A DNA stretch of 50,118 nucleotides, taken from IMG/VR virus record IMGVR_UViG_3300025584_000301, positions 1 to 50,118 of that record; one strand, 5' to 3'. Numbering within the stretch: position 1 is the first letter of the stretch; each line of letters opens with the position of its first letter. Positions 23,964 through 50,000 of the stretch are shown piece after piece. The DNA comes from a virus. The translations under genes and the position numbers were made by a program. The notes below the pieces were generated by a model, which saw only the letters and a list, made by a program, of their open reading frames with translations, was not told the DNA's origin and made no database searches.

Positions 23964-24130
23964 AAAAACAAAAAGTAATATTAATCAAAGATTTTCACAA
24001 TGAAAATGGCACACTACACGCTGGTGAAAAGGTCACAATAGAGGAGCGACTTGATGGTTATGTCCGTGTTCAAAATAACATGGGACAACTATTTGTTGTT
24101 CCACCCCATATTTTAAAAGAAATTGCTTGA
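23960..24130 (+). CDS. Small SH3-like hypothetical protein
   Basis: 56 residues from ATG 23960, on an ATGA overlap with the HNH-like gene; a longer frame starting at 23900 is not needed. VILIKDFHNENGTLHAGEKVTIEERLDGYVRVQNNMGQLFVVP looks like a five-strand SH3-like barrel. Its last codons overlap the -35 box of the next promoter. Confidence 0.65.
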   Translation: MKKQKVILIKDFHNENGTLHAGEKVTIEERLDGYVRVQNNMGQLFVVPPHILKEIA

Positions 24131-24155
24131 CTCTTAACCTTTTTCTTCGTATATT
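24127..24155 (+). promoter_or_regulatory. Sigma70-type promoter of the deformylase gene
   Basis: TTGACT at 24127-24132, 17-nt spacer, TATATT at 24150-24155. First of fourteen near-identical promoters in the window. The gene's ATG lies 7 nt from the end of the -10 box, which predicts a leaderless mRNA. Confidence 0.85.
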
Positions 24156-24161
24156 AATCGT

Positions 24162-24806
24162 ATGAAAAAGGTTATAAATTGTAAGAAAGAAAACAATCCA
24201 GTAATTAATAAATGGCTCAGAGAGGTATCGATTGAAGAAGGACTTGAGATTGCGACAGAATTATTTCAGATACTTAACGAAAGAAAAGACGGCATTGGGT
24301 TGGCAGCTAATCAAGTGGGAATTGATGCACAAGTGGCCGTTCTCAATGTTCGTGAACCGATTATCTTAATCAATCCTGTTATTGTAGATCAATGGGATGA
24401 GATAGATTATTATGAAGGATGTTTAAGTTATCCCGAAAAGGGAATCCACACTAAACGTTATAAAAATATCATTGTTAAATCAGAGCATTTAGAAAGTGGT
24501 ATGTATTTTAGTGGAGTGGAATCATCTAAAGATATGAAAGGTACTTGGGAAACTGCTGCAAAACACGACCAAACTGATAGGCTACTTGAAGCAGTTTGTG
24601 TTCAACATGAGATTGACCATTTAAAGGGAATGACTATTCATGATAGAGAGAATAAACCAAAACCGATAGTAAGTAAAAAATCATATAGTAGAAATGAAAT
24701 CGTTGGTATCACAGATGGTGATACCTACAAAGAAATTAAATATAAAAAAGCTAAACCATTTATAGATAGTGGTGAATGGGTAGTATATGATGGAGAAGTA
24801 AAATAA
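24162..24806 (+). CDS. def: Peptide deformylase
   Basis: 214 residues. All three family motifs are present: GIGLAANQVG (44-53), EGCLSYP (85-91) with the metal-binding Cys, and HEIDH (149-153). It removes the formyl group from N-terminal methionine of new proteins, a known auxiliary function in marine T4-type phages. It is longer than the usual 150-180 residues because of an insert between motifs II and III (about 112-140) and a tail of about 50 residues after motif III. No better start exists in frame, so translation probably begins at or next to the 5' end of the transcript. Confidence 0.95.
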   Translation: MKKVINCKKENNPVINKWLREVSIEEGLEIATELFQILNERKDGIGLAANQVGIDAQVAVLNVREPIILINPVIVDQWDEIDYYEGCLSYPEKGIHTKRYKNIIVKSEHLESGMYFSGVESSKDMKGTWETAAKHDQTDRLLEAVCVQHEIDHLKGMTIHDRENKPKPIVSKKSYSRNEIVGITDGDTYKEIKYKKAKPFIDSGEWVVYDGEVK

Positions 24807-29272: not shown

Positions 29273-29302
29273 TTGACTTGTATAGTTATTATTAACTATA
29301 TT
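29273..29302 (+). promoter_or_regulatory. Sigma70-type promoter
   Basis: TTGACT 29273-29278, 18 nt, TATATT 29297-29302. An ATG follows after six nucleotides (29309), as at other members of the set. Confidence 0.85.
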
Positions 29303-29308
29303 ACAGTC

Positions 29309-29734
29309 ATGAATAAGAAACAAATACAACCAACATACAAAGAAAAGGGAGTCCGGTATATGATGTGCCAATGTGGAAAATATATTTCAGTCGGAGATGA
29401 AGCGATTGAGGTAAAATGCTCAAATGAAGTCAATAGGAACATAATGTCAATGTTTCCTGAATTACACGAAGAAAAAACCAAAAATAAACCAACGGGTCGG
29501 CCAGCTGGATGGCACTTTATGAAAGAGTTCGTAGATAAAGATGGTAATGTGTTTCATAAAGGTAAGGAACAACCAAAGTTATTTGGTACTCTTAAATCCA
29601 CTAAGGTTAAACCTAAGAAGAAAACCAAACGGAGAACATCAGACCAGATACTTATAGATATACATAAGAAGAAAAAAGCAGCATTAAAGAAAGCTAACAA
29701 ATTAAAGGAAAGGGCTACGAATGACAAAATCTAA
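29309..29734 (+). CDS. Basic protein with a Cys pair
   Basis: 141 residues if started at ATG 29309, or 124 from ATG 29360 (MMCQCGKYISVGDE), which has AAGGGA 9 nt upstream. The first start would be leaderless, so the choice is open. MCQCGKY looks like half a zinc knuckle. The C-terminal 60 residues are Lys/Arg-rich (KPKKKTKRRTSDQI) with a coiled tail, suggesting nucleic-acid binding. Confidence 0.65.
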   Translation: MNKKQIQPTYKEKGVRYMMCQCGKYISVGDEAIEVKCSNEVNRNIMSMFPELHEEKTKNKPTGRPAGWHFMKEFVDKDGNVFHKGKEQPKLFGTLKSTKVKPKKKTKRRTSDQILIDIHKKKKAALKKANKLKERATNDKI

Positions 29735-40177: not shown

Positions 40178-40206
40178 TTGACTTTATCATTTTTTCTTCG
40201 TATATT
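40178..40206 (+). promoter_or_regulatory. Sigma70-type promoter with leader cassette
   Basis: TTGACT 40178-40183, 17 nt, TATATT 40201-40206. Six nucleotides later, ATG at 40212 opens MRKREKT, in frame with the ribosome-site-supported ATG at 40233 (AGGGAAAAAACG). Confidence 0.88.
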
Positions 40207-40232
40207 CATATATGAGAAAAAGGGAAAAAACG

Positions 40233-40433
40233 ATGATTTGTCAAAAATGTAAAAAAGTAAAAGCTTGCATTGAATATAAAGGTGGAAATTACTGTACTTG
40301 GTACTGTATAAAGAAAAAGAAGGTAGAGTTACCTGAAGAGTTCTTTCACGAGTTAAATGGTATGTTAAAAGAACAACATGATTTTGACGAAGCTATGAAT
40401 GGTATGGGTATATACGCAGAAACTTACAAATAA
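40233..40433 (+). CDS. Small zinc-finger-like protein
   Basis: 66 residues from ATG 40233, preceded by AAAAAGGGAAAAAACG; an in-frame ATG at 40212 would add seven residues. MICQKCKKVKACIEYKGGNYCTWYCIKKKK resembles an MYND/DksA-like knuckle with CxxC and CxxxC pairs, followed by an acidic helix. Unknown function. Confidence 0.65.
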   Translation: MICQKCKKVKACIEYKGGNYCTWYCIKKKKVELPEEFFHELNGMLKEQHDFDEAMNGMGIYAETYK

Positions 40434-40446
40434 ATGAAAATAATGC

Positions 40447-40476
40447 TTGACTTATATAGGGTTTTAGTGTTATATT
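40447..40476 (+). promoter_or_regulatory. Sigma70-type promoter with leader mini-ORF
   Basis: TTGACT 40447-40452, 18 nt, TATATT 40471-40476. ATG 40482 opens a nine-codon ORF (MTKREKTNK) whose TGA (40509-40511) overlaps the ATG of the VWA gene at 40508. Near copy of the promoter at 35676. Confidence 0.88.
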
Positions 40477-40507
40477 CATATATGACAAAAAGGGAAAAAA
40501 CAAACAA

Positions 40508-42460
40508 ATGAGTAAATATTCAGATTTTTGGTTTGATAGACAAACCGAAGTAAATGACTTTCTTGCCACCATTGGTACGAAAGAAGATGATATTGTTATT
40601 AACAAACCTAAAAAAGACCACATGGGTTTGGCTGGTCATAAAAGAGCAATCGGTAATTTTGTCCGTATTGTAAGTGGGGAAAATATCCCTGTTAAATTCA
40701 TGACTCGTGGAGATTCATTCACAGATGGTAAATCAGTTACCATCAGTTCTAACATTAATGAGAAAAACTTTGACCACGTTGTTGGTCTGGCTCTTCATGA
40801 AGGTTCTCATATTGCTTATAGTGATTTTGAAGTATTCAAAGAAGTGAGAAATCTAACCAAGATACGTAATTGGGATTTGACTCCAGCGAGAATGGAATTT
40901 CTCCGTGGGATGATTAATTACATTGAAGATAGACGAATTGATTCGATTGTGTTCAAATCTTCACCTGGTTATAAAGGTTATTATCACACTTTGTACTCCA
41001 AGTACTTTAACAACAAAAAAATTGGTAAAGGATTGAAATCCACGATGTATCGTGATGTTGATTTTGAATCTTATATGTTTAGAATTGTTAACTTCACTAA
41101 TGAAGGTACTGATTTAAATGCTCTTCCAAGACTATTGGACATCTATCGTTTGGTGGATATGAAAAACATCTCAAGACTAAAATCTACTGATGATGTCATT
41201 GAAGTGGCAAAGTCTATTTGTGATGTTGTTTTCAAACTCGTGGGTGAAAATAAAGGTGATGGAAAACCTGAAAATGGTGAAGGTGAAGAAGATTCTGAAG
41301 GTGAAGAAGAAAATGGTAGTTCATCTAATAATAAAGGTGGTGGAACTGAAGTAGATAGTGGTGATAAAGAAATGACTCCTGAAGATGGAGAACCTACTGA
41401 AGGTGAAGAAATATCAGATTCCATGAAGAAATCTATTGAGAACATTTACAAAAAAACCAAAGAATTACTTGAAGGTAAGACACCAAAAAGTAAGATGACT
41501 AAAAATGACAAGAAGATTGTTGATGCTCTTGGTAATAGTAATTCCGAGTTAGTTGAAGTCGGTGGTACTGAAGGTCTTAGTAAAACTAAAGTAGTGGTTG
41601 TTCCTGACTTAACTCAGGCTTTGATTGATTCAAAAGCTTTTCACTTTCTTCATCATTATTCTTATAGTTATCGTTCAAGTGGTAAAGAAGAAGCAATTGC
41701 TGATGGACTTCGTTTGGGTGCCATCTTGGGTAAAAAACTCAAAGTTCGTGGTGAAGAGAAAGATTTGATTTACACCCGTCAAACAAGTGGTAAAATCAAT
41801 AAGAGATTGATTGCCGAGTTGGGGTTTGATAATGGTAATGTCTTTAGTCAAGTCTTTACTGAAAGATATAACAAAGCTAACCTACATATTTCGATTGACG
41901 CGAGTGGTAGTATGAGTGGTAATAAATTATCTAAATCAATCACTTCAGCCGTTGCGATGGTCAAGGCTGCTGAGATGGCTGGAAACATTCACGTGGTGGT
42001 TAGTTTCCGTTGGACTCAAGATGACAAACCAGTAGTTATCATTTGTTATGATTCTCGGAAAGATAAGATAACCAAGATAAAGAAATTATGGAAATACATA
42101 AATGCCGGTGGAACGACACCAGAGTCACTATGTTATGAGGCTTTGATGAAAAAATGGTTAGGTGGTGTAAATGGAGATGATAACTATTTCATCAACTATT
42201 CAGATGGTGCTCCTTGGTTTTCTAATAATGAGATTTATTATCATGGAGCTTGTGCTGAGAAACATACTAAAAAGATGGTCAAGATGATGAAGAACAATGG
42301 AATTAAGATTTCAAGTTATTTCATTAAAGAAGGTGACTATAGTTATGGAGATGATAAAAATGTTTTCTCCCGTATGTATGGTAGGGATGCCAGTTTTATC
42401 AACCCGACAAACATGATGGAAGTGGCAAAGTCAATGAACTCAAAGTTCTTGGAGAAGTAA
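40508..42460 (+). CDS. CobT-like VWA protein with HExxH motif
   Basis: 650 residues. VVGLALHEGSHIAYSDF (91-107) contains HExxH, and NYIEDRRID (137-145) matches the ED-R-I block of CobT/VWA-metallopeptidase families. Residues 250-305 are very acidic and low in complexity. LHISIDASGSMSGNKLSKS (459-477) is a perfect MIDAS (DxSxS) of a VWA domain, continuing to the C-terminus. CobT-like proteins work with MoxR/CobS AAA+ ATPases as metal-insertion or remodelling machines, and such an ATPase lies at 48624. Target unknown. Confidence 0.85.
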   Translation: MSKYSDFWFDRQTEVNDFLATIGTKEDDIVINKPKKDHMGLAGHKRAIGNFVRIVSGENIPVKFMTRGDSFTDGKSVTISSNINEKNFDHVVGLALHEGSHIAYSDFEVFKEVRNLTKIRNWDLTPARMEFLRGMINYIEDRRIDSIVFKSSPGYKGYYHTLYSKYFNNKKIGKGLKSTMYRDVDFESYMFRIVNFTNEGTDLNALPRLLDIYRLVDMKNISRLKSTDDVIEVAKSICDVVFKLVGENKGDGKPENGEGEEDSEGEEENGSSSNNKGGGTEVDSGDKEMTPEDGEPTEGEEISDSMKKSIENIYKKTKELLEGKTPKSKMTKNDKKIVDALGNSNSELVEVGGTEGLSKTKVVVVPDLTQALIDSKAFHFLHHYSYSYRSSGKEEAIADGLRLGAILGKKLKVRGEEKDLIYTRQTSGKINKRLIAELGFDNGNVFSQVFTERYNKANLHISIDASGSMSGNKLSKSITSAVAMVKAAEMAGNIHVVVSFRWTQDDKPVVIICYDSRKDKITKIKKLWKYINAGGTTPESLCYEALMKKWLGGVNGDDNYFINYSDGAPWFSNNEIYYHGACAEKHTKKMVKMMKNNGIKISSYFIKEGDYSYGDDKNVFSRMYGRDASFINPTNMMEVAKSMNSKFLEK

Positions 42461-42461
42461 A

Positions 42462-42572
42462 ATGAACATACTAGAAAAAACAAAAAATGTCTTAATGGGA
42501 TTGGTCTTTATAACCATCATGTATTTCTGTACGATTATGATGTTTATTCTTGATGGAGCACCATTTCATTAA
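42462..42572 (+). CDS. Small single-span membrane protein
   Basis: 36 residues. VLMGLVFITIMYFCTIMMFIL is a clear membrane helix. Two nucleotides after the VWA gene with GGAG upstream. Unknown function. Confidence 0.55.
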   Translation: MNILEKTKNVLMGLVFITIMYFCTIMMFILDGAPFH

Positions 42573-42574
42573 AA

Positions 42575-42814
42575 ATGATAAATAACATAAAATACCAGAA
42601 GAAAATAAAGAACATACAACGAATGATGATTGTTTGGGCTGAACATCAGGTAGATGGTAAGAAGAGAGATTTACCTGATGATTGGAAACCTAATCTCAAG
42701 TGGTTACTGAAATTGGAAAATGCCGATTCAATAACTAAAAGAGATATGGAATGTTGTAATGAATATCATAAACACTATGGTGACCCGAAGGGTATAATGA
42801 GGAACTTGAAATGA
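42575..42814 (+). CDS. Small hypothetical protein
   Basis: 79 residues, basic and helical at the start (KYQKKIKNIQRMMIVWAEHQ), with CCNEYHKHYGD near the end. Coupled by ATGA to the next gene. No family recognised. Confidence 0.6.
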   Translation: MINNIKYQKKIKNIQRMMIVWAEHQVDGKKRDLPDDWKPNLKWLLKLENADSITKRDMECCNEYHKHYGDPKGIMRNLK

Positions 42815-43185
42815 TGCCAGAAAATAAACCCTTTGAAGTATTTCTGAACAAAGATAGTTCGCTACACTACAGCGTTGGACAAGTGGATGTGGAAGTGAAT
42901 CAATCTCATATGAATAGATTGAGAGTACTCCATATGACTATGCATGATTGGAAAAAGAATAATGGTAATGTACCAGATGATTTTGTAATGATGTCTCGGA
43001 GTGGGATGGGAAGAAGATATGAAGCTGATTTACACAAGGTTGAAGAATTAGTAGAACGGGGAACAAAAACAATGTTAGAAGATGATAAAGAATTTCTCGG
43101 TACTGATAAATTTCTTACCAAGGGTGAGATGTTAGAGATGAATGATTTATTTAAAACCTACGGTGGAAAGAGAGTAACAAAATGA
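42811..43185 (+). CDS. Hypothetical protein
   Basis: 124 residues, start ATG 42811 or 42814. Alpha/beta with many Met and His residues (MNRLRVLHMTMHDWKKNNGN). Followed by a 69-nt gap containing a T-run (43206-43213) and TATATATA (43220-43227), a possible weak promoter or terminator. Confidence 0.6.
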   Translation: MMPENKPFEVFLNKDSSLHYSVGQVDVEVNQSHMNRLRVLHMTMHDWKKNNGNVPDDFVMMSRSGMGRRYEADLHKVEELVERGTKTMLEDDKEFLGTDKFLTKGEMLEMNDLFKTYGGKRVTK

Positions 43186-43254
43186 TTAATGAGTGGGTAG
43201 GGAATTTTTTTTGGTTATGATATATATACCTCTATTTATTAATAAGGAATCATT

Positions 43255-43500
43255 ATGAATAAGATAAACGAACTCATAGATACATTAATAGAAATCAGTT
43301 GTGAAGAGTCAATCACACCCGAGTCTAGAATTAAATTAGATGACGTGATTGATGAATTATTGAATTTCCAACTTGATACTCATGGCATGGATAAAATTGT
43401 ACCTAATTTAAATGAATTAAGCCCCGATGAATTAGAAGAACTCAAATTATTTGAATTACTTGTTCATGCCACTATGAATAATACTTTAGCAATGGCGTGA
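43255..43500 (+). CDS. Small acidic hypothetical protein
   Basis: 81 residues after AAGGAATC. Acidic and helical throughout (IDELLNFQL, SPDELEELKLFELLVHA). First gene of the palindrome-rich region, with a 7-3-7 palindrome starting on its last base. Confidence 0.6.
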   Translation: MNKINELIDTLIEISCEESITPESRIKLDDVIDELLNFQLDTHGMDKIVPNLNELSPDELEELKLFELLVHATMNNTLAMA

Positions 43501-43545
43501 TTTTCCTTTGGAAAATGATGATTGAAATTAAATGATTGAAATTAA
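43500..43545 (+). repeat. Mini-palindrome plus 14-nt tandem duplication
   Basis: ATTTTCC-TTT-GGAAAAT (43500-43516) is a 7-3-7 palindrome on the preceding stop. Next, ATGATTGAAATTAA occurs twice in tandem (43518-43531 and 43532-43545). The second copy is the start of the next gene. The first reads MIEIK and a TGA that overlaps that start. Confidence 0.85.
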
Positions 43546-43798
43546 AAATAAAGACTTGGATAAAATCCTACTTTTGATTAAATACATGATGGACGAGAGG
43601 CCGGACTTGAATGAAAAATTGATGGATTTTTATTGTTATTTATTAGATATGAAATCGATTCACAAGGTGAATCCAAATGAATCGCAAGTAAAAAGAACCA
43701 CCGTGGATGAAAGTGATAGCGAATCCATGAATCTAGATGAGATGATATGGAATTTAGGTATGAGTCTGCCGAGTTGGGATGATTTACAAAGTAAATGA
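43532..43798 (+). CDS. Small acidic hypothetical protein
   Basis: 88 residues. Start MIEIKNKDLDKILLLIKYMM, then a hydrophilic Ser/Glu part, ending DDLQSK. A 7-3-7 palindrome (GATTCAC-AAG-GTGAATC, 43657-43673) lies inside the coding region. The last four codons are encoded by the mini-palindrome that follows. The same ending occurs in the next gene. Confidence 0.6.
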   Translation: MIEIKNKDLDKILLLIKYMMDERPDLNEKLMDFYCYLLDMKSIHKVNPNESQVKRTTVDESDSESMNLDEMIWNLGMSLPSWDDLQSK

Positions 43799-43812
43799 TT
43801 TACAAAGTAAAT
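43782..43812 (+). repeat. Tandem mini-palindromes over a stop codon
   Basis: Two copies of ATTTAC-AAA-GTAAAT (43782-43796 and 43798-43812), separated by one G. The first contains the start of the gene's TGA. As RNA each copy would be a 6-bp triloop hairpin; as DNA, a dimer-type operator. Confidence 0.85.
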
Positions 43813-43842
43813 GAATAATTAAATCGAAGGAAATAAAATAAA

Positions 43843-44037
43843 ATGAAACATAAACTAGAATTAAATGACAAACAAATAGAGTTTTTAACCAAGTGTATTG
43901 ATATAAGTACTTCAGTGCAAAGGATTAAACCCGATATGAGTGAAGTGGAGATAATTCGTACATTAACTTTATTAAACGAAGAAATCCAAGAACTCAAATT
44001 GGGTGATAGGATTTATAATGATTTACAAAGTAAATGA
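43843..44037 (+). CDS. Small hypothetical protein
   Basis: 64 residues, helical (NDKQIEFLTKCIDI, ILNEEIQEL-like end TLLNEEIQELKLGD), ending DLQSK like the previous gene because both stops lie in the same palindrome. Preceded by GAAGGAAATAAAATAAA. Unknown function. Confidence 0.6.
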   Translation: MKHKLELNDKQIEFLTKCIDISTSVQRIKPDMSEVEIIRTLTLLNEEIQELKLGDRIYNDLQSK

Positions 44038-44086
44038 TTTACAATTCCTATGGAATTCAATTCCTATGGAATTAAACAACGTAAAT
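44021..44086 (+). repeat. Nested palindrome array
   Basis: ATTTAC-AAA-GTAAAT (44021-44035), then an ATTTAC arm (44037-44042) whose partner GTAAAT lies at 44081-44086. Between these arms sit two copies of AATTCC-TAT-GGAATT (44043-44057, 44059-44073). It looks as if a hairpin doublet entered the loop of an older palindrome. Confidence 0.85.
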
Positions 44087-44100
44087 AAAAGAGGGATGAA

Positions 44101-44367
44101 ATGGCAATACCAAGTATGACAAAAAGAAATCCATGTACTTATTTGAAAGAATATATGAATCAAGACGGTATGATTATAAAAGAATGGCAACGTGGTTATG
44201 TACAGGATAGGAGTGTAAAGAATCAAGTCTATTTAATCAGTCCTGGCGTGGGTGGTGAAATGGACGAGAGATGGTATGATTATATTGATGTAAAATTAAC
44301 GAAAGGTCATTGGACTAATAAACGACCACCCGTTAGTAAGAAGAGTTTTTGGACACGAGCCAAGTAA
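44101..44367 (+). CDS. Small basic hypothetical protein
   Basis: 88 residues after GAGGGATGAA. Basic and Trp-rich, probably beta (IIKEWQRGYVQDRSVKNQVY, YIDVKLTKGHWTNKR). Its stop lies at the edge of the next palindrome array. No family recognised. Confidence 0.6.
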   Translation: MAIPSMTKRNPCTYLKEYMNQDGMIIKEWQRGYVQDRSVKNQVYLISPGVGGEMDERWYDYIDVKLTKGHWTNKRPPVSKKSFWTRAK

Positions 44368-44424
44368 ATGATTTCAATTCCTATGGAATTCAATTCCTAT
44401 GGAATTATACAAAGTAAATGATTG
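44362..44424 (+). repeat. Hairpin doublet flanked by direct repeats
   Basis: Two AATTCC-TAT-GGAATT copies (44376-44390, 44392-44406) are bracketed by AAGTAAATGATT on the left (44362-44373) and on the right (44412-44423). The left copy includes the stop of the preceding gene. This duplication layout resembles a short insertion. Confidence 0.82.
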
Positions 44425-44455
44425 AATCGCGATTAATGAATGGAGTCATGGAGTT

Positions 44456-44983
44456 TTGTCAAATTTCGATAAGTTAAATAAACTAAAACCAAAGCTTAAT
44501 CTTGAAAGGAGTATAAAACAAATCCTAATGATTATCAAAGAACCTCATAAGGTTTATGGTCATGGAGTGGGTTCAAGAATTGATATAGAAAAAATAAACG
44601 CTCGTTTAGAATTGATTGAGTCAACTTTATTGGATATAAAAGACCATCTTGGTTTACTAACTAGTATGGATAAATTAAGTATGTTGGGTAAAGAGCCATT
44701 AAAGAAAGATAACTTCACACATAAGATACAAGAAGCTAATTGGTATGTTTATATCTTAAAGTGTGGTGATAAAAGTATTTATACAGGAATGGGTAAGGGA
44801 GAGATTGAAGAGAAAATGCAAGAACATCTGGATAGTAAGGGAAGTAAGTATGTGAGTAGTAGAGGAATGTTTAAACTCGTATGGAGTAAGGATGGATTTA
44901 CGGCAAGTGAAGCATTAACGGAAGTACATAGGATTAAATCATTAGGAATGGAGCAATTGTCCTTGATGATTAAAGGTAATTGA
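44456..44983 (+). CDS. GIY-YIG nuclease domain protein
   Basis: 175 residues from TTG 44456 (GGAG about 10 nt upstream). Residues 1-88 are helical with no known domain. Residues 96-172 are a GIY-YIG fold of the UvrC/YhbQ type: WYVYILKCGDKSIYTGMGKG, EHLDSKGSKYVSSRG, then SEALTEVHRIKSLG with the metal Glu156. The usual catalytic Arg (TxxxxRxxxH) reads Lys120, so activity may be reduced. The gene has hairpin repeats on both sides, as expected of a mobile or homing nuclease. Confidence 0.8.
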   Translation: MSNFDKLNKLKPKLNLERSIKQILMIIKEPHKVYGHGVGSRIDIEKINARLELIESTLLDIKDHLGLLTSMDKLSMLGKEPLKKDNFTHKIQEANWYVYILKCGDKSIYTGMGKGEIEEKMQEHLDSKGSKYVSSRGMFKLVWSKDGFTASEALTEVHRIKSLGMEQLSLMIKGN

Positions 44984-45036
44984 ATTACATGGTAATTGAA
45001 TTCAATTCCTATGGAATTAAACAAGGTAATTGAATG
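44975..45036 (+). repeat. Hairpin flanked by three copies of a gene-end repeat
   Basis: GGTAATTGAAT occurs at 44975-44985 (with the GIY-YIG stop), 44991-45001 and 45025-45035 (running into the next ATG). Between the last two lies AATTCC-TAT-GGAATT (45004-45018). GTAATT-G-AATTAC (44976-44988) is a further palindrome. Same plan as the array at 44362, but with different flanks. Confidence 0.82.
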
Positions 45037-45279
45037 ACTTACTATATAGTGATGCCTGAAGATAATGAAAATAATCTATGGGACGAAAATGAATTAGGGG
45101 AGAGTTCATTTGGAATGTTTTATCCAGGCAGAGGAATGGAAGCCCTGAGGGAAATAATTGAAAAACATCCAATCCACTTGAAAAATGTGGAGATTATAAA
45201 TGAACGGAATGATAAATTCACCGTATTGGAATTCTTAGATTTAATAAAAGATATGAAGATTTACGAAGTAAATGATTAA
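45034..45279 (+). CDS. Small acidic hypothetical protein
   Basis: 81 residues; the ATG lies in the third repeat copy. TYYIVMPEDNENNLW, GMFYPGRGMEALREII and a LEFLDLIKDM tail. Ends IYEVND, encoded by an ATTTAC-GAA-GTAAAT palindrome. Unknown function. Confidence 0.6.
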   Translation: MTYYIVMPEDNENNLWDENELGESSFGMFYPGRGMEALREIIEKHPIHLKNVEIINERNDKFTVLEFLDLIKDMKIYEVND

Positions 45280-45298
45280 GGATTCACTAGGGTGAATC
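45259..45298 (+). repeat. Two mini-palindromes at a gene end
   Basis: ATTTAC-GAA-GTAAAT (45259-45273) just before the TAA, then GATTCAC-TAGG-GTGAATC (45281-45298). The second matches the arms of the palindrome inside the gene at 43532. Confidence 0.82.
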
Positions 45299-45339
45299 GA
45301 AATCAACAACAACATGCTAGCTCAGAGACTATAGGTTAA

Positions 45340-45420
45340 ATGGATTGTATTGTGATGGATTTGATTTTATTCTTCCTTATTGTGTGGTTTATAGAGAGCA
45401 TTACAGAAGAGTATTTGTAA
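45340..45420 (+). CDS. Possible 26-residue membrane peptide
   Basis: MDCIVMDLILFFLIVWFIES then a short acidic end, a classic one-helix membrane peptide. AGG lies 6 nt before the ATG. It is the only plausible gene in the 481 nt between 45279 and 45761. The rest of that stretch holds a terminator (45467), a variant promoter (45608), an AAGTAG/CTACTT hairpin near 45660 and AT-rich sequence. Confidence 0.4.
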   Translation: MDCIVMDLILFFLIVWFIESITEEYL

Positions 45421-45466
45421 TATACAAGTAGTATAGTTTATAAAACACAACAAGTGGAGTCATGTG

Positions 45467-45494
45467 GGGAATAATGGGTAATTATTCCTTTTTT
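45467..45494 (+). terminator. Rho-independent terminator
   Basis: GGAATAAT (45468-45475) pairs with ATTATTCC (45481-45488) around a short loop, followed at once by six T (45489-45494). It closes the palindrome-rich gene group. Confidence 0.8.
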
Positions 45495-45607
45495 ATTATT
45501 ATGATAAAATAAGCACTTAGATTTATGGAATCATATATATAGTCTGAAACATACTACGCACACACCTCCCGATTATATTTTTTTATGGGGTAATTGGTCT
45601 TTTTTGC

Positions 45608-45636
45608 TTGTTTTTCTCGTTATTTTGTAGTATATT
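45608..45636 (+). promoter_or_regulatory. Variant promoter, TTGTTT -35
   Basis: TTGTTT 45608-45613, 17 nt, TATATT 45631-45636. Same spacing and -10 as the main set with a changed -35. It would produce a transcript reading into the next promoter region; probably weak or decayed. Confidence 0.45.
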
Positions 45637-45706
45637 CACCTATACACCACAAGTTAGCAAGTAGGATTCACTACTTAAATTAATTCAATTTAATTCAATT
45701 TAATGC

Positions 45707-45735
45707 TTGACTTTGTGGTAAAAATGTTGTATATT
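45707..45735 (+). promoter_or_regulatory. Sigma70-type promoter with leader cassette
   Basis: TTGACT 45707-45712, 17 nt, TATATT 45730-45735, then TTG 45742 and AAAAAAGGGAAAAAAC before ATG 45761. The TTG mini-frame ends at 45771, inside the gene. Confidence 0.88.
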
Positions 45736-45760
45736 AAGGGGTTGAAAAAAGGGAAAAAAC

Positions 45761-45889
45761 ATGAAAGATAAAAGAACAAATAAGAATTACAATCCAACTG
45801 TTGAGTTTAACAAAGCAATTAACTCTGACTGGTTTAAGAAATTAGTAACCAGAATGGGTAAAGAGGAAAATATTAAAAAAGCTCTTTAG
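45761..45889 (+). CDS. 42-residue hypothetical protein
   Basis: MKDKRTNKNYNPTVEFNKAI then SDWFKKLVTRMGKEEN to the end KKAL. Basic and helical. A strong promoter and ribosome site directly upstream make it very likely real despite its size. Its transcript may continue through the structured segment and the tRNA. Confidence 0.65.
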   Translation: MKDKRTNKNYNPTVEFNKAINSDWFKKLVTRMGKEENIKKAL

Positions 45890-46080
45890 ATGAAAGACTT
45901 CTTAAACAGATTATGTGTTCCGACGGGAATAATTATAGGCTGAGTTAAGATATAGAGGGGCTTCTGACGGGAGGCTCCTCTGAAATTTAAGTGGGTTAGC
46001 CTTTTCTACTTATTTGAAAAGGTGGTGGGTTCAAGAGTGACTACCTATTTGGAACTCTTAAAGATATTAGCTGATAGGCC
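45890..46080 (+). ncRNA. Structured non-coding segment ahead of tRNA-Cys
   Basis: No ORF. Hairpins: GTTCC-GACG-GGAAT (45917-45930); an 11-bp stem with loop TGACGG (45954-45981); and CCTTTTC/GAAAAGG (46000-46022). The first two present the same 11-nt motif TTCYGACGGGA (45918-45928 and 45962-45972). It may be a processed small RNA or a structured leader of the tRNA. The resemblance to known RNAs is too weak to name it. Confidence 0.4.
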
Positions 46081-46154
46081 GAGCTGGTGTCCGAGTGGTC
46101 TAAGGAGATGGATTGCAAACCCATTATTCGTGAGTTCGAATCTCACCCAGCTCT
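46081..46154 (+). tRNA. tRNA-Cys (GCA)
   Basis: Acceptor GAGCTGG pairs with CCAGCTC (46147-46153). The anticodon loop TTGCAAA holds GCA, and the T arm GTGAG/CTCAC has loop TTCGAAT. The discriminator base is U (46154), a cysteine identity element. The 31-39 pair is A-C, a mismatch at the bottom of the anticodon stem. CCA is not encoded. It would raise tRNA-Cys supply in the infected cell. Confidence 0.9.
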
Positions 46155-46193
46155 CAAAATTTAATTAAAGATAAAAATAAATGAAAATAACAC

Positions 46194-46222
46194 TTGACTT
46201 TCTCAGATATTATGTGTATATT
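46194..46222 (+). promoter_or_regulatory. Sigma70-type promoter with leader mini-ORF
   Basis: TTGACT 46194-46199, 17 nt, TATATT 46217-46222. GTG 46228 opens VNKRKKQ whose TGA overlaps the ATG at 46248. The upstream AT-rich stretch ATAAATGAAAATAA is shared with the promoters at 40447 and 46842. Confidence 0.88.
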
Positions 46223-46247
46223 TAGGTGTGAATAAAAGGAAAAAACA

Positions 46248-46529
46248 ATGAACTTGAAACAGATAACAAAGGAAGCTATAGAGAACCCAGGAAACTGGTT
46301 TCATGAGGGCCCGTTTAAGGGTGGTGTTAATTGGAATGCGGTAGACTCTGATATATGGTGTCATCCAGATAGTGTGAACTATACTCAACAAGAGAAGTAT
46401 GATGCTCTTGAGAGCATGTATGACCCGAGACCAGACATCACGGACAGGTGGAGAGATCACGTTAATATGTCCTATCCTATATCCGAGGTAGAGGATGGGC
46501 TTAAACCCGTGACACATAATTTAAAATAG
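46248..46529 (+). CDS. Small hypothetical protein
   Basis: 93 residues after AAAAGGAAAAAACA. Trp- and Asp-rich (NPGNWFHEGPFKGGVNW, DITDRWRDHVNMSYP). Single-gene unit with its own promoter. Unknown function. Confidence 0.65.
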   Translation: MNLKQITKEAIENPGNWFHEGPFKGGVNWNAVDSDIWCHPDSVNYTQQEKYDALESMYDPRPDITDRWRDHVNMSYPISEVEDGLKPVTHNLK

Positions 46530-46542
46530 TTGCCGATTTTAC

Positions 46543-46571
46543 TTGACTTTCTCATTTATTTAATGTATATT
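46543..46571 (+). promoter_or_regulatory. Sigma70-type promoter with leader cassette
   Basis: TTGACT 46543-46548, 17 nt, TATATT 46566-46571. ATG 46578 opens MNKGKKR, in frame with the ATG at 46599. Confidence 0.88.
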
Positions 46572-46577
46572 CAAGTA

Positions 46578-46760
46578 ATGAATAAAGGAAAAAAACGAAT
46601 GATTAAGATACATAAATTTCAAAACAACATTGCTCCAACCTTTGTGGAGAAGCAAGGTATAGTATATAAAGTAGTTGATATGGGTGGATACAAGGTAGAG
46701 ATACGAGTTAAGCCTGAGGCTGAGGTTAAGAGAGATAACTTATTATTCCACTCCAAGTAA
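46578..46760 (+). CDS. Small beta-rich hypothetical protein
   Basis: 60 residues from ATG 46578, or 53 from ATG 46599, which has AAAGGAAAAAAACGA upstream and is the likelier main start. KIHKFQNNIAPTFVEKQGIV, YKVVDMGGYKVEIRVKPEAE: small barrel-like. Unknown function. Confidence 0.6.
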   Translation: MNKGKKRMIKIHKFQNNIAPTFVEKQGIVYKVVDMGGYKVEIRVKPEAEVKRDNLLFHSK

Positions 46761-46766
46761 ATCAAA

Positions 46767-46815
46767 CACCACTACAGTGGTGCTGAGTTATGATTGACGG
46801 CCATTGGAACAGAAT
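46767..46815 (+). repeat. Hairpin and intergenic motif copy A
   Basis: CACCACT-AC-AGTGGTG (46767-46782) is a perfect 7-2-7 palindrome. It is followed by GTTATGATTGACGGCCATTG (46787-46806), which recurs almost exactly at 47161. Both copies lie upstream of a promoter cassette. Confidence 0.75.
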
Positions 46816-46841
46816 TAATTAAAAATAAATGAAAATAAACC

Positions 46842-46871
46842 TTGACTTGTATAGCATTTATGTTGTATATT
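46842..46871 (+). promoter_or_regulatory. Sigma70-type promoter
   Basis: TTGACT 46842-46847, 18 nt, TATATT 46866-46871. The leader lacks the usual early start codon and has AATAATAATAATAAAAC, with AAAGGAAC before ATG 46917. Confidence 0.86.
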
Positions 46872-46916
46872 CAAGGGGGAATAATAATAATAAAACAATC
46901 AACTTAAAGGAACTAC

Positions 46917-47138
46917 ATGAAGAAAAAAATAAGCCCTAAACTACAAGCCATATTAGATATGAATGCTGAGTTAAACTCAGAATCGAAGTCAAATGAATCA
47001 TTCACTAAACAACTGAAGAACGATGAGTTTATTGATGACTATACTGGTTATTTACTACAAGACAGTACTGTACTGGATAACTCACAAGATGACATCAACT
47101 ACGATGATATGGAAATGAATGATTATTATTTAGATTAA
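46917..47138 (+). CDS. Small acidic hypothetical protein
   Basis: 73 residues. Basic start (KKKISPKLQAILDMN), strongly acidic end (DDINYDDMEMNDYYLD). Charge layout suggests a protein-binding inhibitor or mimic, which is inference. Own promoter. Confidence 0.6.
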   Translation: MKKKISPKLQAILDMNAELNSESKSNESFTKQLKNDEFIDDYTGYLLQDSTVLDNSQDDINYDDMEMNDYYLD

Positions 47139-47156
47139 ATCGTTAAATAAAGGGTA

Positions 47157-47190
47157 CTGGGTTATGATTCACGGCCATTGAGATAGAATT
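47157..47190 (+). repeat. Intergenic motif copy B
   Basis: GTTATGATTCACGGCCATTG (47161-47180) followed by an AGAATTAA block, matching copy A at 46787 with a single change in the 20-nt core. Lies 26 nt before a promoter. Confidence 0.75.
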
Positions 47191-47205
47191 AAATTAAAAT
47201 AACGC

Positions 47206-47234
47206 TTGACTTTACCGATTATTATCAGTATATT
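47206..47234 (+). promoter_or_regulatory. Sigma70-type promoter with leader mini-ORF
   Basis: TTGACT 47206-47211, 17 nt, TATATT 47229-47234. ATG 47241 opens MNKGKKQ whose TGA (47262-47264) overlaps the ATG at 47261. Confidence 0.88.
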
Positions 47235-47260
47235 CAAGTAATGAATAAAGGAAAAAAACA

Positions 47261-47485
47261 ATGAAATTTTATAAATCAGATGTAATCGAAATACCAAACA
47301 TTGATACGTTTAAAGGATATATACCACCTGGTTATGATTTAGTCGAATACGAAAAAGGTACGAATCCTGAAATGGATGGTATGGTACTACATGGTTTTGA
47401 TGAAATTAATATGGACGAATTTGGTTTTAAAAATCCAGAATATTGTTTTATAAAATACATAATTAATAAAGGAAAAAAACAATGA
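47261..47485 (+). CDS. Small hypothetical protein ending in the leader peptide
   Basis: 74 residues (KFYKSDVIEIPNIDTFKGYI to the end). The C-terminal NKGKKQ is encoded by AATAAAGGAAAAAAACAA, the same cassette that precedes this gene, and its TGA overlaps the next ATG (47482). So the ribosome-site cassette is used as coding sequence. Unknown function. Confidence 0.62.
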   Translation: MKFYKSDVIEIPNIDTFKGYIPPGYDLVEYEKGTNPEMDGMVLHGFDEINMDEFGFKNPEYCFIKYIINKGKKQ

Positions 47486-47727
47486 ACTTAAAAAATGAAA
47501 TTAGAAAACTAAATAGTCTTTCAGAACTGAATGACTTGTCAGCTTTCATTAATGATTGTAAAACCATGTTAGGTAGAGCATCACTATGTGTTGGGGCTAA
47601 AGTATATGTGGTTCAAAAGACAAAGAAAACTCCTGGTGTCATCACGAAGATGAATATCAAGAAGGCTATTGTTGATATGAGAGGTTCGAGTTACAACGTT
47701 CCTTTTAGTATGTTGGAATTAGTCTAA
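47482..47727 (+). CDS. Small SH3/KOW-like hypothetical protein
   Basis: 81 residues. N-terminal helices (LNDLSAFINDCKTML) then a barrel-like part: CVGAKVYVVQKTKKTPGVIT, AIVDMRGSSYNVPFSMLE. Such domains often bind nucleic acid. Coupled by ATGA to the gene before. Confidence 0.62.
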   Translation: MNLKNEIRKLNSLSELNDLSAFINDCKTMLGRASLCVGAKVYVVQKTKKTPGVITKMNIKKAIVDMRGSSYNVPFSMLELV

Positions 47728-47748
47728 AACAAAAAAAGGAAAAAAACG

Positions 47749-48030
47749 ATGAAGTATAAACACGGACAAGTAATTAAAGTAAATGGTGAAGTGCCACTCA
47801 TGAATCCAGAAGATTGGTTCAATGATATGATTGGAGATGGGATACCATTAGAACAGGCTTTAGATCATATCATAACTGATTGTATTGTGATGTCAAAGGT
47901 AAATGATATGTTATCTGATACTGAACAAGATGAATTGTTTGGGAATAATCAAGGTTTAATTGGAGATTCAACCACATGGAAACAGGGTGGTGGAATGTTT
48001 GAAGTCTTAATAGAAGATGAAAACGTTTAA
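47749..48030 (+). CDS. Small acidic hypothetical protein
   Basis: 93 residues after AAAAAAAGGAAAAAAACG. Has the cassette ribosome site but no promoter of its own, so it is transcribed from 47206. NPEDWFNDMIGDGIPLEQAL looks helical. Unknown function. Confidence 0.62.
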   Translation: MKYKHGQVIKVNGEVPLMNPEDWFNDMIGDGIPLEQALDHIITDCIVMSKVNDMLSDTEQDELFGNNQGLIGDSTTWKQGGGMFEVLIEDENV

Positions 48031-48049
48031 AAATAAATCAAAATAATGC

Positions 48050-48078
48050 TTGACTTTGTCAAGTATTTGTTGTATATT
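48050..48078 (+). promoter_or_regulatory. Sigma70-type promoter with leader cassette
   Basis: TTGACT 48050-48055, 17 nt, TATATT 48073-48078. At the position of the early start codon the leader has ACG (48085); the frame still ends on a TGA overlapping ATG 48105. Near copy of the promoter at 48569. Confidence 0.88.
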
Positions 48079-48104
48079 TAAGTAACGAAAAAAGGGATAA
48101 AACG

Positions 48105-48368
48105 ATGAAGATAAATATGTTGAACATGGATACCGATGAAGTTGAAGTAAGAGAAGTGGATATTAATAATCCAGAATCTATTATGGATTTTATCATGGAG
48201 ACTAGAGAATCATATAACTTATCAGATGATGATACTGAAAAATTATTTGATGATATATTCAGAACTGATGATAATTTTGATCCATACGAAGGTATTTCAA
48301 AAGAAGAATTAGAATTATATAATTCAGTTTCCCCGGGGTTATCAATGACACCAGTAGGAGAGGCATAA
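48105..48368 (+). CDS. Small acidic hypothetical protein
   Basis: 87 residues, very acidic (DTDEVEVREVDINNPES, LSDDDTEKLFDDIF). After AAGGGATAAAACG. Possibly a DNA-mimic or antihost factor, which is inference from charge only. Confidence 0.62.
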   Translation: MKINMLNMDTDEVEVREVDINNPESIMDFIMETRESYNLSDDDTEKLFDDIFRTDDNFDPYEGISKEELELYNSVSPGLSMTPVGEA

Positions 48369-48370
48369 CC

Positions 48371-48547
48371 TTGAATGACATAACACAATATGGTGAAAAC
48401 GAATTAAGTCTTCACGTTTTCAATGATGAGTATTTGTATAACGCAAGATTAAACAAATCGTATTTAATGGCTTTAATTTCTGAAGAATTCATATATACGG
48501 ATGAACAGATGGATGTATTAATCCAAGACTTAGATGACGAAGAGTAG
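48371..48547 (+). CDS. Small acidic hypothetical protein
   Basis: 58 residues from TTG 48371 with AGGAGAGG about 10 nt upstream. LSLHVFNDEYLYNARLNKSY then DEQMDVLIQDLDDEE. Coupled to the gene before it with a 2-nt gap. No family recognised. Confidence 0.6.
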   Translation: MNDITQYGENELSLHVFNDEYLYNARLNKSYLMALISEEFIYTDEQMDVLIQDLDDEE

Positions 48548-48568
48548 GAAAATAATTCAATATAATGC

Positions 48569-48597
48569 TTGACTTTATCAAGTATTTGTCGTATATT
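48569..48597 (+). promoter_or_regulatory. Sigma70-type promoter of the MoxR-type ATPase
   Basis: TTGACT 48569-48574, 17 nt, TATATT 48592-48597. Leader with ACG at 48604 and AAAAGGAAAAAAACA before ATG 48624. Confidence 0.88.
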
Positions 48598-48623
48598 CAA
48601 GTAACGAAAAAAGGAAAAAAACA

Positions 48624-49799
48624 ATGAAGTTAAAAACTAAACCCCCCGTAGGAACGATTGTCAAGATAGTAATGTCTGGTAATCGATACAATGCCTTCGA
48701 CAAGGATGGTACTAAATGGACTCACGCCATTATAACCAGTACTCGTAAGTCAACGTATAAAGCCAATAAAGCTTTGGAAATGCGTGAGAAGAACGGTAGA
48801 ACATATTGGTGGAAAGTACCATTATCCGCAATGGGTAATGACAAGGCTAACCCAATACCCACTCCAACAGAGATAGAGGTTCCTGAAGGTCATCATGAGG
48901 TTATAGAGTTCATCCGTGATTCATATAAATTAAAGCCAGATGGTTTGATTATGAACGAATTAAAATGGAAATACTTAATTCGTTCAGCCGTAAGGGGTAA
49001 GAATATAATGATGACTGGTCAAGCCGGTTGTGGTAAAACTATGGCGGCTAAGGCATTGGTTAAATCATTAGATAGACCAGAGTATTACTTTAATTTAGGT
49101 GCGACACAAGATCCTCGCTCGACCTTAATTGGTAATGTCCATTATAATAAAGTGGATGGAACTTACTTTAGTGAATCACTATTCGTTAAAGCGATTCAAA
49201 CACCTAACGCTGTTATCTTGTTAGACGAACTGACACGGGCTCATCCAGATGCGTGGAACATCTTAATGCCTGTACTGGATCAAGGACAGCGTTATCTTCG
49301 GTTAGATGAGGCAGATGGACAAAAGACCATCATGGTGGCTAATGGAGTAACATTCATAGCTACGGCTAACATCGGTAATGAGTATACTGCGACTCGTCAA
49401 TTAGATAAAGCCTTGATGGATAGATTCACGGTTATCGAAATGGACTTGTTGAATCAAAAAGAAGAACTTGGATTACTGAAGTATATGTTCCCAACGGTTG
49501 ATGAAACAGAATTGAGTAATGTAAGTAATATAACTAACTTAACTCGTGTTGAAGCCGTGGCTGAGAATGCTCGGATAACCTCGGGAGTAAGTACAAGAAC
49601 ATCAGTAGAGATTGCTGGATTAATGTTTGATGGGTTCTCATTACTTGAAGCTGCTGATATCACCATTTACCCTCAGTATGACAATACTGGTGGAGTAGAT
49701 AGTGAACGTACCTTTGTTAAACAAATCGTACAGAAGTTCATTACAGATGATTCCGGTGAAGAACTGTTTACAGAACACGATATGGAGTCTGAAAGCTAA
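48624..49799 (+). CDS. MoxR/CobS-like AAA+ ATPase
   Basis: 391 residues. Residues 1-70 are a basic beta-rich region (VGTIVKIVMSGNRYNAFD). The AAA+ core has Walker A GQAGCGKT (132-139), Walker B VILLDEL (197-203), sensor 1 ATANIG (246-251) and DRF (266-268). LGATQDPRSTLIGNVHY is the MoxR/CobS pore-side insert. MoxR-type ATPases remodel VWA partners, and the CobT-like protein at 40508 is the obvious candidate although six kilobases away. CobS-like genes are common in marine T4-type phages. Confidence 0.9.
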   Translation: MKLKTKPPVGTIVKIVMSGNRYNAFDKDGTKWTHAIITSTRKSTYKANKALEMREKNGRTYWWKVPLSAMGNDKANPIPTPTEIEVPEGHHEVIEFIRDSYKLKPDGLIMNELKWKYLIRSAVRGKNIMMTGQAGCGKTMAAKALVKSLDRPEYYFNLGATQDPRSTLIGNVHYNKVDGTYFSESLFVKAIQTPNAVILLDELTRAHPDAWNILMPVLDQGQRYLRLDEADGQKTIMVANGVTFIATANIGNEYTATRQLDKALMDRFTVIEMDLLNQKEELGLLKYMFPTVDETELSNVSNITNLTRVEAVAENARITSGVSTRTSVEIAGLMFDGFSLLEAADITIYPQYDNTGGVDSERTFVKQIVQKFITDDSGEELFTEHDMESES

Positions 49800-49878: not shown

Positions 49879-49931
49879 ATTTAACTTAGTTAAATGAATG
49901 ATTTACGAAGTAAATGATTTACGAAGTAAAT
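49879..49931 (+). repeat. Three mini-palindromes
   Basis: ATTTAAC-TTA-GTTAAAT (49879-49895), then ATTTAC-GAA-GTAAAT twice (49901-49915, 49917-49931). Same family as at 43.5-45.3 kb, here without a nearby stop codon. Confidence 0.85.
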
Positions 49932-49937
49932 GATTTA

Positions 49938-50000
49938 AGGGGATTGAAAAATATCCTCTATCAAATGGGGGCTGGTTTAATTCCTTTTTCCGGCTCCTAT
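49938..50000 (+). other. Two adjacent hairpins
   Basis: AGGGGAT/ATCCTCT (49938-49959, 8-nt loop) and ATGGGGGCTGG/CCGGCTCCTAT (49965-50000, 11 pairs with three G-U and a 14-nt loop). The stretch from 49800 to the window end has no gene I can support and is dominated by structure. Confidence 0.5.

Follow-up and report, generated by a model that had tools for sequence, protein, structure and literature searches.

Predicted 5'-terminal AUG codons with open leader frames in a group of T4-like marine viruses

The virus record IMGVR_UViG_3300025584_000301, analysed over its full 50,118 bases (the window), carries a CobS-like AAA+ gene and a CobT-like gene. Here, we describe AUG codons at or near the predicted 5' ends of transcripts in this record and in its relatives, where some are apparently the only start of a gene and others precede a start led by a Shine-Dalgarno (SD) sequence. 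Four sites in the window (40212, 40482, 46578 and 47241) have an AUG close to the predicted 5' end, with an SD and a main start downstream. All 5' ends are predicted from promoter position, and the gap given below is the number of nucleotides between the -10 box and the codon.

48624..49799, + strand: CobS-like AAA+ gene; profile match; served as query for fetching relatives
40508..42460, + strand: CobT-like VWA gene; weak PHROG cobalamin-biosynthesis match
40178..40206, + strand: promoter, -35 to -10, upstream of the leader AUG at 40212; exact promoter pattern
40212..40232, + strand: leader AUG, MRKREKT, with the SD AAGGG inside; in frame with gene 40233-40433 (21 nt); gap 5 nt
40447..40476, + strand: promoter of the CobT-like VWA gene; exact promoter pattern
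40482..40511, + strand: mini-ORF (open reading frame) MTKREKTNK, its TGA overlapping the ATG at 40508; gap 5 nt
46543..46571, + strand: promoter upstream of the leader AUG at 46578; exact promoter pattern
46578..46598, + strand: leader AUG, MNKGKKR; in frame with gene 46599-46760 (21 nt); gap 6 nt
47206..47234, + strand: promoter upstream of the mini-ORF at 47241; exact promoter pattern
47241..47264, + strand: mini-ORF MNKGKKQ, its TGA overlapping the ATG at 47261; gap 6 nt

Thirteen exact TTGACT-N17/18-TATATT promoters were found in the window, all on the + strand, and the reversed pattern was found 0 times. An ATG is positioned at gap 5 or 6 in 6 of the 13, compared with 4 of the 116 TATATT sites not preceded by such a -35 (Fisher P = 5e-5). 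Relatives were collected as 80 viral loci via the CobS query, 11 via the CobT query and 60 further stretches of the same contigs, amounting to 2.6 Mb in about 150 stretches (labelled L001-L151) from uncultured marine viruses; every locus traces to these two queries and to one virus group. The group is considered T4-like because a T4-type DNA polymerase (phrog_262) and a DnaB-like helicase were found on one related contig. A nucleotide search of the window against phage records gave no match, and at the protein level these records held distant relatives only. An Rfam search gave a tRNA as its sole match. The CobS relatives found in genome bins are on short contigs assigned to SAR86, Alphaproteobacteria and Pelagibacter bins, and the host is therefore not settled.

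The promoter pattern is highly regular in the relatives, where TATATT follows TTGAC[AT]-N17/18 on 375 occasions against 4-5 at control spacings, and TATAAT was found only 9 times at the same position. The -10 box of the group is consequently TATATT and not TATAAT (375 vs 9), with the variants TAGCTT, TAAGAT and TAAGTT also seen in L001-L151 and the window. In the set first collected, 97 of 201 distinct TATATT promoters had an ATG at gap 5-8, as did 12% of the 2,781 TATATT sites without that -35. The observed counts relative to column expectation were 62/26.9, 23/3.6, 13/3.2 and 19/6.1 at gaps 5, 6, 7 and 8.

Two of these six window promoters, both missed by the first-pass annotation, lead to genes that start at the predicted 5' AUG without a usable SD-led start and would be leaderless if transcription sets in at the distance usual for sigma70 promoters:

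24127..24161, + strand: promoter of peptide deformylase, TTGACT-N17-TATATT plus 6-nt gap; exact pattern
24162..24806, + strand: peptide deformylase, predicted leaderless; start 6 nt past the -10 box, no other usable start
29273..29308, + strand: promoter (N18) plus 6-nt gap, upstream of 29309; exact promoter pattern
29309..29734, + strand: gene MNKKQIQPTYKEKGVRYMM..., predicted leaderless; AUG at the predicted 5' end is the gene start

The PF01327 match of the peptide deformylase runs from residue 11 at profile position 8, and the corresponding genes in L107, L137 and L117 likewise start 5-6 nt past a -10-like box. For gene 29309, the N-terminal PxYxEKGVRYMM is conserved in L117 (MKQTRPDYIEKGVRYMM, with its ATG 6 nt after TATATT) and in L107. 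Among the relatives, 55 promoters were classed as leaderless, with the -10 box so close to the start codon that a leader would not fit. In the UvdE homologs the PF03851 match begins at residue 3 (profile position 1), and in the PNKP-type HAD phosphatases the DxDGT motif occupies residues 9-13; these two families and peptide deformylase begin at the 5' AUG, with no other usable start downstream. Judged by predicted 5' ends, many of the genes with a 5' AUG are truly leaderless.

Three architectures are found in the group: the AUG as gene start, the AUG together with an SD-led ATG 18-60 nt further on, and the SD-led start only. Leaderless, AUG-plus-SD and SD-only members coexist within HAD family 233 and likewise within the CobT-like family 30. 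The leader AUG of gene 40233 is retained in L011, L144, L145 and L150, and in L048 and L140 the homologs begin directly at the 5' AUG, as leaderless genes. The stop-start overlap of the CobT leader is retained in L146, L149, L145, L136 and L106 despite differing leader sequence, with L144 as the exception.

The leader AUGs are probably read by ribosomes, because the AUG frame alone stays open and pseudo-starts show no such effect. The 68 leaders with both AUG and SD divided into 46 in-frame fusions, 7 ATGA and 2 TAATG overlaps, 5 frames running past the start out of frame and 8 early stops. When weighted by family, openness up to the main start was 0.90 / 0.63 / 0.42 for frames 0/1/2 with AUG and 0.41 / 0.61 / 0.46 in SD leaders without AUG, so that only the AUG frame differs; taking one leader per family, the permutation P was 0.0004. 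The pseudo-starts ATA, ATT and ATC were accompanied by no opening (0.37 / 0.55 / 0.57 for frames 0/1/2). Among short non-redundant leaders (15-31 nt) the frame was open in 23 of 25 with AUG and in 25 of 54 without (P = 7e-5), and the other two frames showed no difference between these sets. The distance from SD to ATG has its peak at 18-21 nt in leaders with and without AUG alike.

The CobS leaders give a test in which the main start is fixed by homology. In 26 non-redundant leaders, frames 0, 1 and 2 were open in 19, 9 and 4, respectively (P = 5e-5); here the first AUG may be as far as about 15 nt past the -10 box. In the CobS tree of 60 loci, for which a few leader states were assigned by eye, 37 had an AUG with an open or start-adjacent frame, 13 had no AUG, 7 were closed and 3 were leaderless. 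The loci with an open or start-adjacent AUG frame are distributed over deep branches of the tree, and the window's own subclade is without AUG, having ACG, GTC or GTT instead. A recurrent element, ATGAGAGA...AACTAAC, was also seen in CobS leaders at variable distance from the -10 box (L015, L023, L025, L029, L036, L038, L054 and L057) and is possibly a conserved 5' RNA element.

We favour the reading that these T4-like marine viruses use 5' AUGs as leaderless-type entry points whose frame is kept open by selection, and we hold this account as a whole to be somewhat more probable than its negation. Sigma70-type promoters of the form TTGAC-N17/18-TATATT would often set an AUG at, or a few nucleotides from, the transcription start. 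Some genes would have this AUG as their only start and be leaderless; in others, with an SD-led start about 18-60 nt downstream, it would be a second, leaderless-type entry point. Selection would then keep stop codons out of the AUG frame as far as the main start and remove leaders that strand ribosomes before the gene. A ribosome that enters at the tip would in most cases read into the gene and yield a slightly longer protein; less often it would stop at the start codon itself (ATGA or TAATG) and could re-initiate there. Ribosome entry at a 5'-terminal AUG, as proposed in the first-pass annotation, looks plausible given the open frames and the orthologous or similar promoters that drive leaderless genes. 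The promoter grammar, the AUG enrichment at the predicted 5' end, the leaderless genes and the frame constraint are what the sequences show; we infer where exactly the 5' ends lie, that ribosomes bind there and whether expression is affected. A more specific proposal, that the promoter-proximal genes are carried on dual-entry mRNAs in which the 5' AUG serves intact 70S ribosomes and the SD serves 30S subunits, with frames tuned so that both serve the same gene, is tentative and in our view rather doubtful.

Several observations weigh against the favoured account. The window promoters are not independent, as they resemble duplicated copies of one another, and the frame outcome within the window alone (4/4 ATGs) is weak evidence; significance derives from the relatives. 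The AUG itself comes and goes among orthologs, and the frame is closed in 7 of the 60 CobS loci. Differences in leader length are not enriched for multiples of three (200 of 563 related pairs), and strict conservation of phase was rejected on this ground; it is the open frame that is conserved. The class with AUG and SD may include leaderless genes in which an internal stretch happens to look like an SD (29309 is one such gene), and this would bias the general test; the CobS test and the short-leader test are less exposed to this misclassification. Finally, the AUG frequency was 34% in SD-led promoters and 24% where no gene is evident, the latter being a suggestive negative control contaminated by short coding genes. 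As the first value is not clearly higher, part of the AUG enrichment may be a preference of the promoter, and positive selection for the AUG as a ribosome loader appears unsupported by these frequencies.

Such a loader was the proposal of the first-pass annotation: the 5' AUG would capture a 70S ribosome, which translates the mini-ORF and re-initiates at, or shifts to, the SD-led start, raising expression. The short leaders (20-26 nt, cf. the 26-nt ptrB leader) fit this proposal, as do the ATGA and TAATG overlaps, which were seen in 9 of the 68 leaders and again in several CobT leaders of differing sequence. A proven analogue exists in E. coli, where an upstream AUG (uAUG) raises ptrB expression (PMC4965119). 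However, in-frame fusions are far commoner than mini-ORFs (46 vs 9), an ATGA overlap is automatic whenever the frame is +2 and the second codon starts with A, and the AUG is often missing in orthologs. In RNA structure tests the window leaders folded no better than shuffled sequences. Translational coupling via RNA structure was rejected on this result, and an upstream ribosome is not needed for unfolding; unstructured leaders as such fit both direct entry and a loader. Taken together we regard loading as rather unlikely.

The AUGs could also be a by-product, TATG merely being favoured around the transcription start of duplicated promoters, with the AUG unread and the frames coincidental. It is true that the window leaders are near copies, that the AUG is present at roughly one in four promoters for which no gene is evident, and that TAT is common at gaps 4-6 with A or G next. 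Against this stand the limitation of stop-freedom to the AUG frame, shared neither by the ATA, ATT and ATC pseudo-frames nor by the other two frames, and the fact that the same promoters drive genes whose sole start is the 5' AUG; we find this explanation unlikely. Least probable, and to us improbable, is an effect of annotation whereby the 5' AUG of a fused leader is the real and only start of a leaderless gene with a chance SD-like stretch and an internal ATG, for although 40233 has leaderless homologs (L048, L140) and 29309 is itself such a case, the SD-ATG distance peaks at 18-21 nt with or without AUG, the fused segments are low-complexity K/N/G peptides and SD-only orthologs use the same internal ATG.

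The first-pass annotation had extended its proposal to codons other than ATG, with the following frames in the window:

45742..45771, + strand: TTG frame; crosses the main start out of frame; gap 6 nt; considered chance
46228..46251, + strand: GTG frame, its TGA overlapping the ATG at 46248; gap 5 nt; GTG is not enriched in relatives
48085..48108, + strand: ACG frame before gene 48105, its TGA overlapping the main ATG; gap 6 nt; probably not a start
48604..48627, + strand: ACG frame before the CobS-like gene 48624, its TGA overlapping the main ATG; gap 6 nt; orthologs have GTC or GTT and no AUG

The codons are all where that annotation placed them (ATG at 40212, 40482, 46578 and 47241, GTG at 46228, TTG at 45742, ACG at 48085 and 48604). 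The gap, given there as six nucleotides with five at 46228 only, is indeed six at 45742, 46578 and 47241 but five also at 40212 and 40482. The frames were said either to fuse with the gene or to end on an overlapping TGA, which describes 40212 and 46578 (fused) and 40482, 46228 and 47241 (overlapping) but not the TTG frame of 45742, which does neither; the two ACG frames do keep their TGA overlap on the main ATG. As alternative 5' starts GTG, TTG and ACG fare poorly, with no enrichment at these positions in the relatives, and they are best read as chance or decayed sites. In the near-identical pair L006 and L008 one has GTG and the other ATG in the same place. Leader-frame conservation, the comparison which that annotation had put forward, holds for the AUG frame, which is kept open to the main start, and fails for the AUG itself, which is often lost. 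The likeness of the leader peptides lends the proposal no support: they are alike because the SD (AAAGGGAAAA) itself encodes K/R/G-rich residues. Gene 47261-47485 also ends in INKGKKQ, echoing the leader peptide MNKGKKQ, since the next gene, 47482, has the same SD leader and this leader lies within the 3' end of 47261-47485.

Other sequence elements were noticed in passing. The window harbours repeated intercistronic cassettes at 43778-45037 and 49892-49939, located between small ORFs at stop/start junctions and consisting of ATGATTTACAAAGTAAATGA in tandem and the near-palindrome AATTCCTATGGAATT. In L005, L009, L010 and L012 promoters are followed by a common non-coding-like stretch (CGACTATAGGCGTCAAGCTAGCTTTGGATT...) with no ORF, and in L017 a promoter is followed by GGGGCTGAAAGGTTTCGACA, which presumably resembles the 5' end of a tmRNA.

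In E. coli the AUG is found at the 5' end in 115 of 3,456 transcripts and within 3 nt of it in 287, and the tested 5'-uAUG cases range in effect from strong to none, with loss of the uAUG reducing ptrB expression to <8% (PMC4965119). The E. coli mRNAs of this kind (ptrB, rcnR, iscR and rhaB) share with the viral ones an AUG at or near the 5' end followed by SD and main start, as well as short leaders (26 nt in ptrB) and, in the rhaB upstream ORF, an ATGA overlap (PMC4965119). The viruses differ in that about half of the recognised promoters are involved, mostly in frame and with a frame constraint across genomes, known from sequence alone. The lambda cI and tetR genes, leaderless genes of a phage and a transposon, likewise begin at a 5' AUG without SD, whereas here many genes per virus group do so and interchange with SD-led forms within a gene family. 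Leaderless genes whose start adjoins the -10 box are frequent in the Actinobacteria and in Deinococcus-Thermus (PMC3160421, PMC12340547). These TA-led or leaderless genes share with ours a -10 box some 10 bp ahead of the start codon; there it adjoins a gene of the host genome, whereas the viral promoters have full -35 and -10 boxes and many are AUG-plus-SD hybrids. Pelagibacter phage HTVC008M is also a T4-like marine phage with TTGAC promoters and CobS, but most of the promoters recognised in it read TTGAC-N17-TATAAT, in many cases with a TG preceding the -10 box, and its promoters have no AUG at gap 5-8. Searches of open-licence papers yielded no report of a virus group with this mixture of leaderless, hybrid and SD-only genes.

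Gene calling in such viruses may be affected, as many N-termini may be misplaced by 6-18 residues and leaderless starts overlooked. Scattered examples of a 5'-terminal AUG ahead of an SD-led gene are known from E. coli, with effects that depend on the gene; the presence of such AUGs in about half of the recognised promoters, with a frame constraint across divergent genomes, would be evolutionary evidence that they are read. The natural series of leaderless, hybrid and SD-only forms of one gene could be used to study how bacteria shift between modes of initiation. If true, dual entry would let the virus continue translation when initiation in the host is altered.

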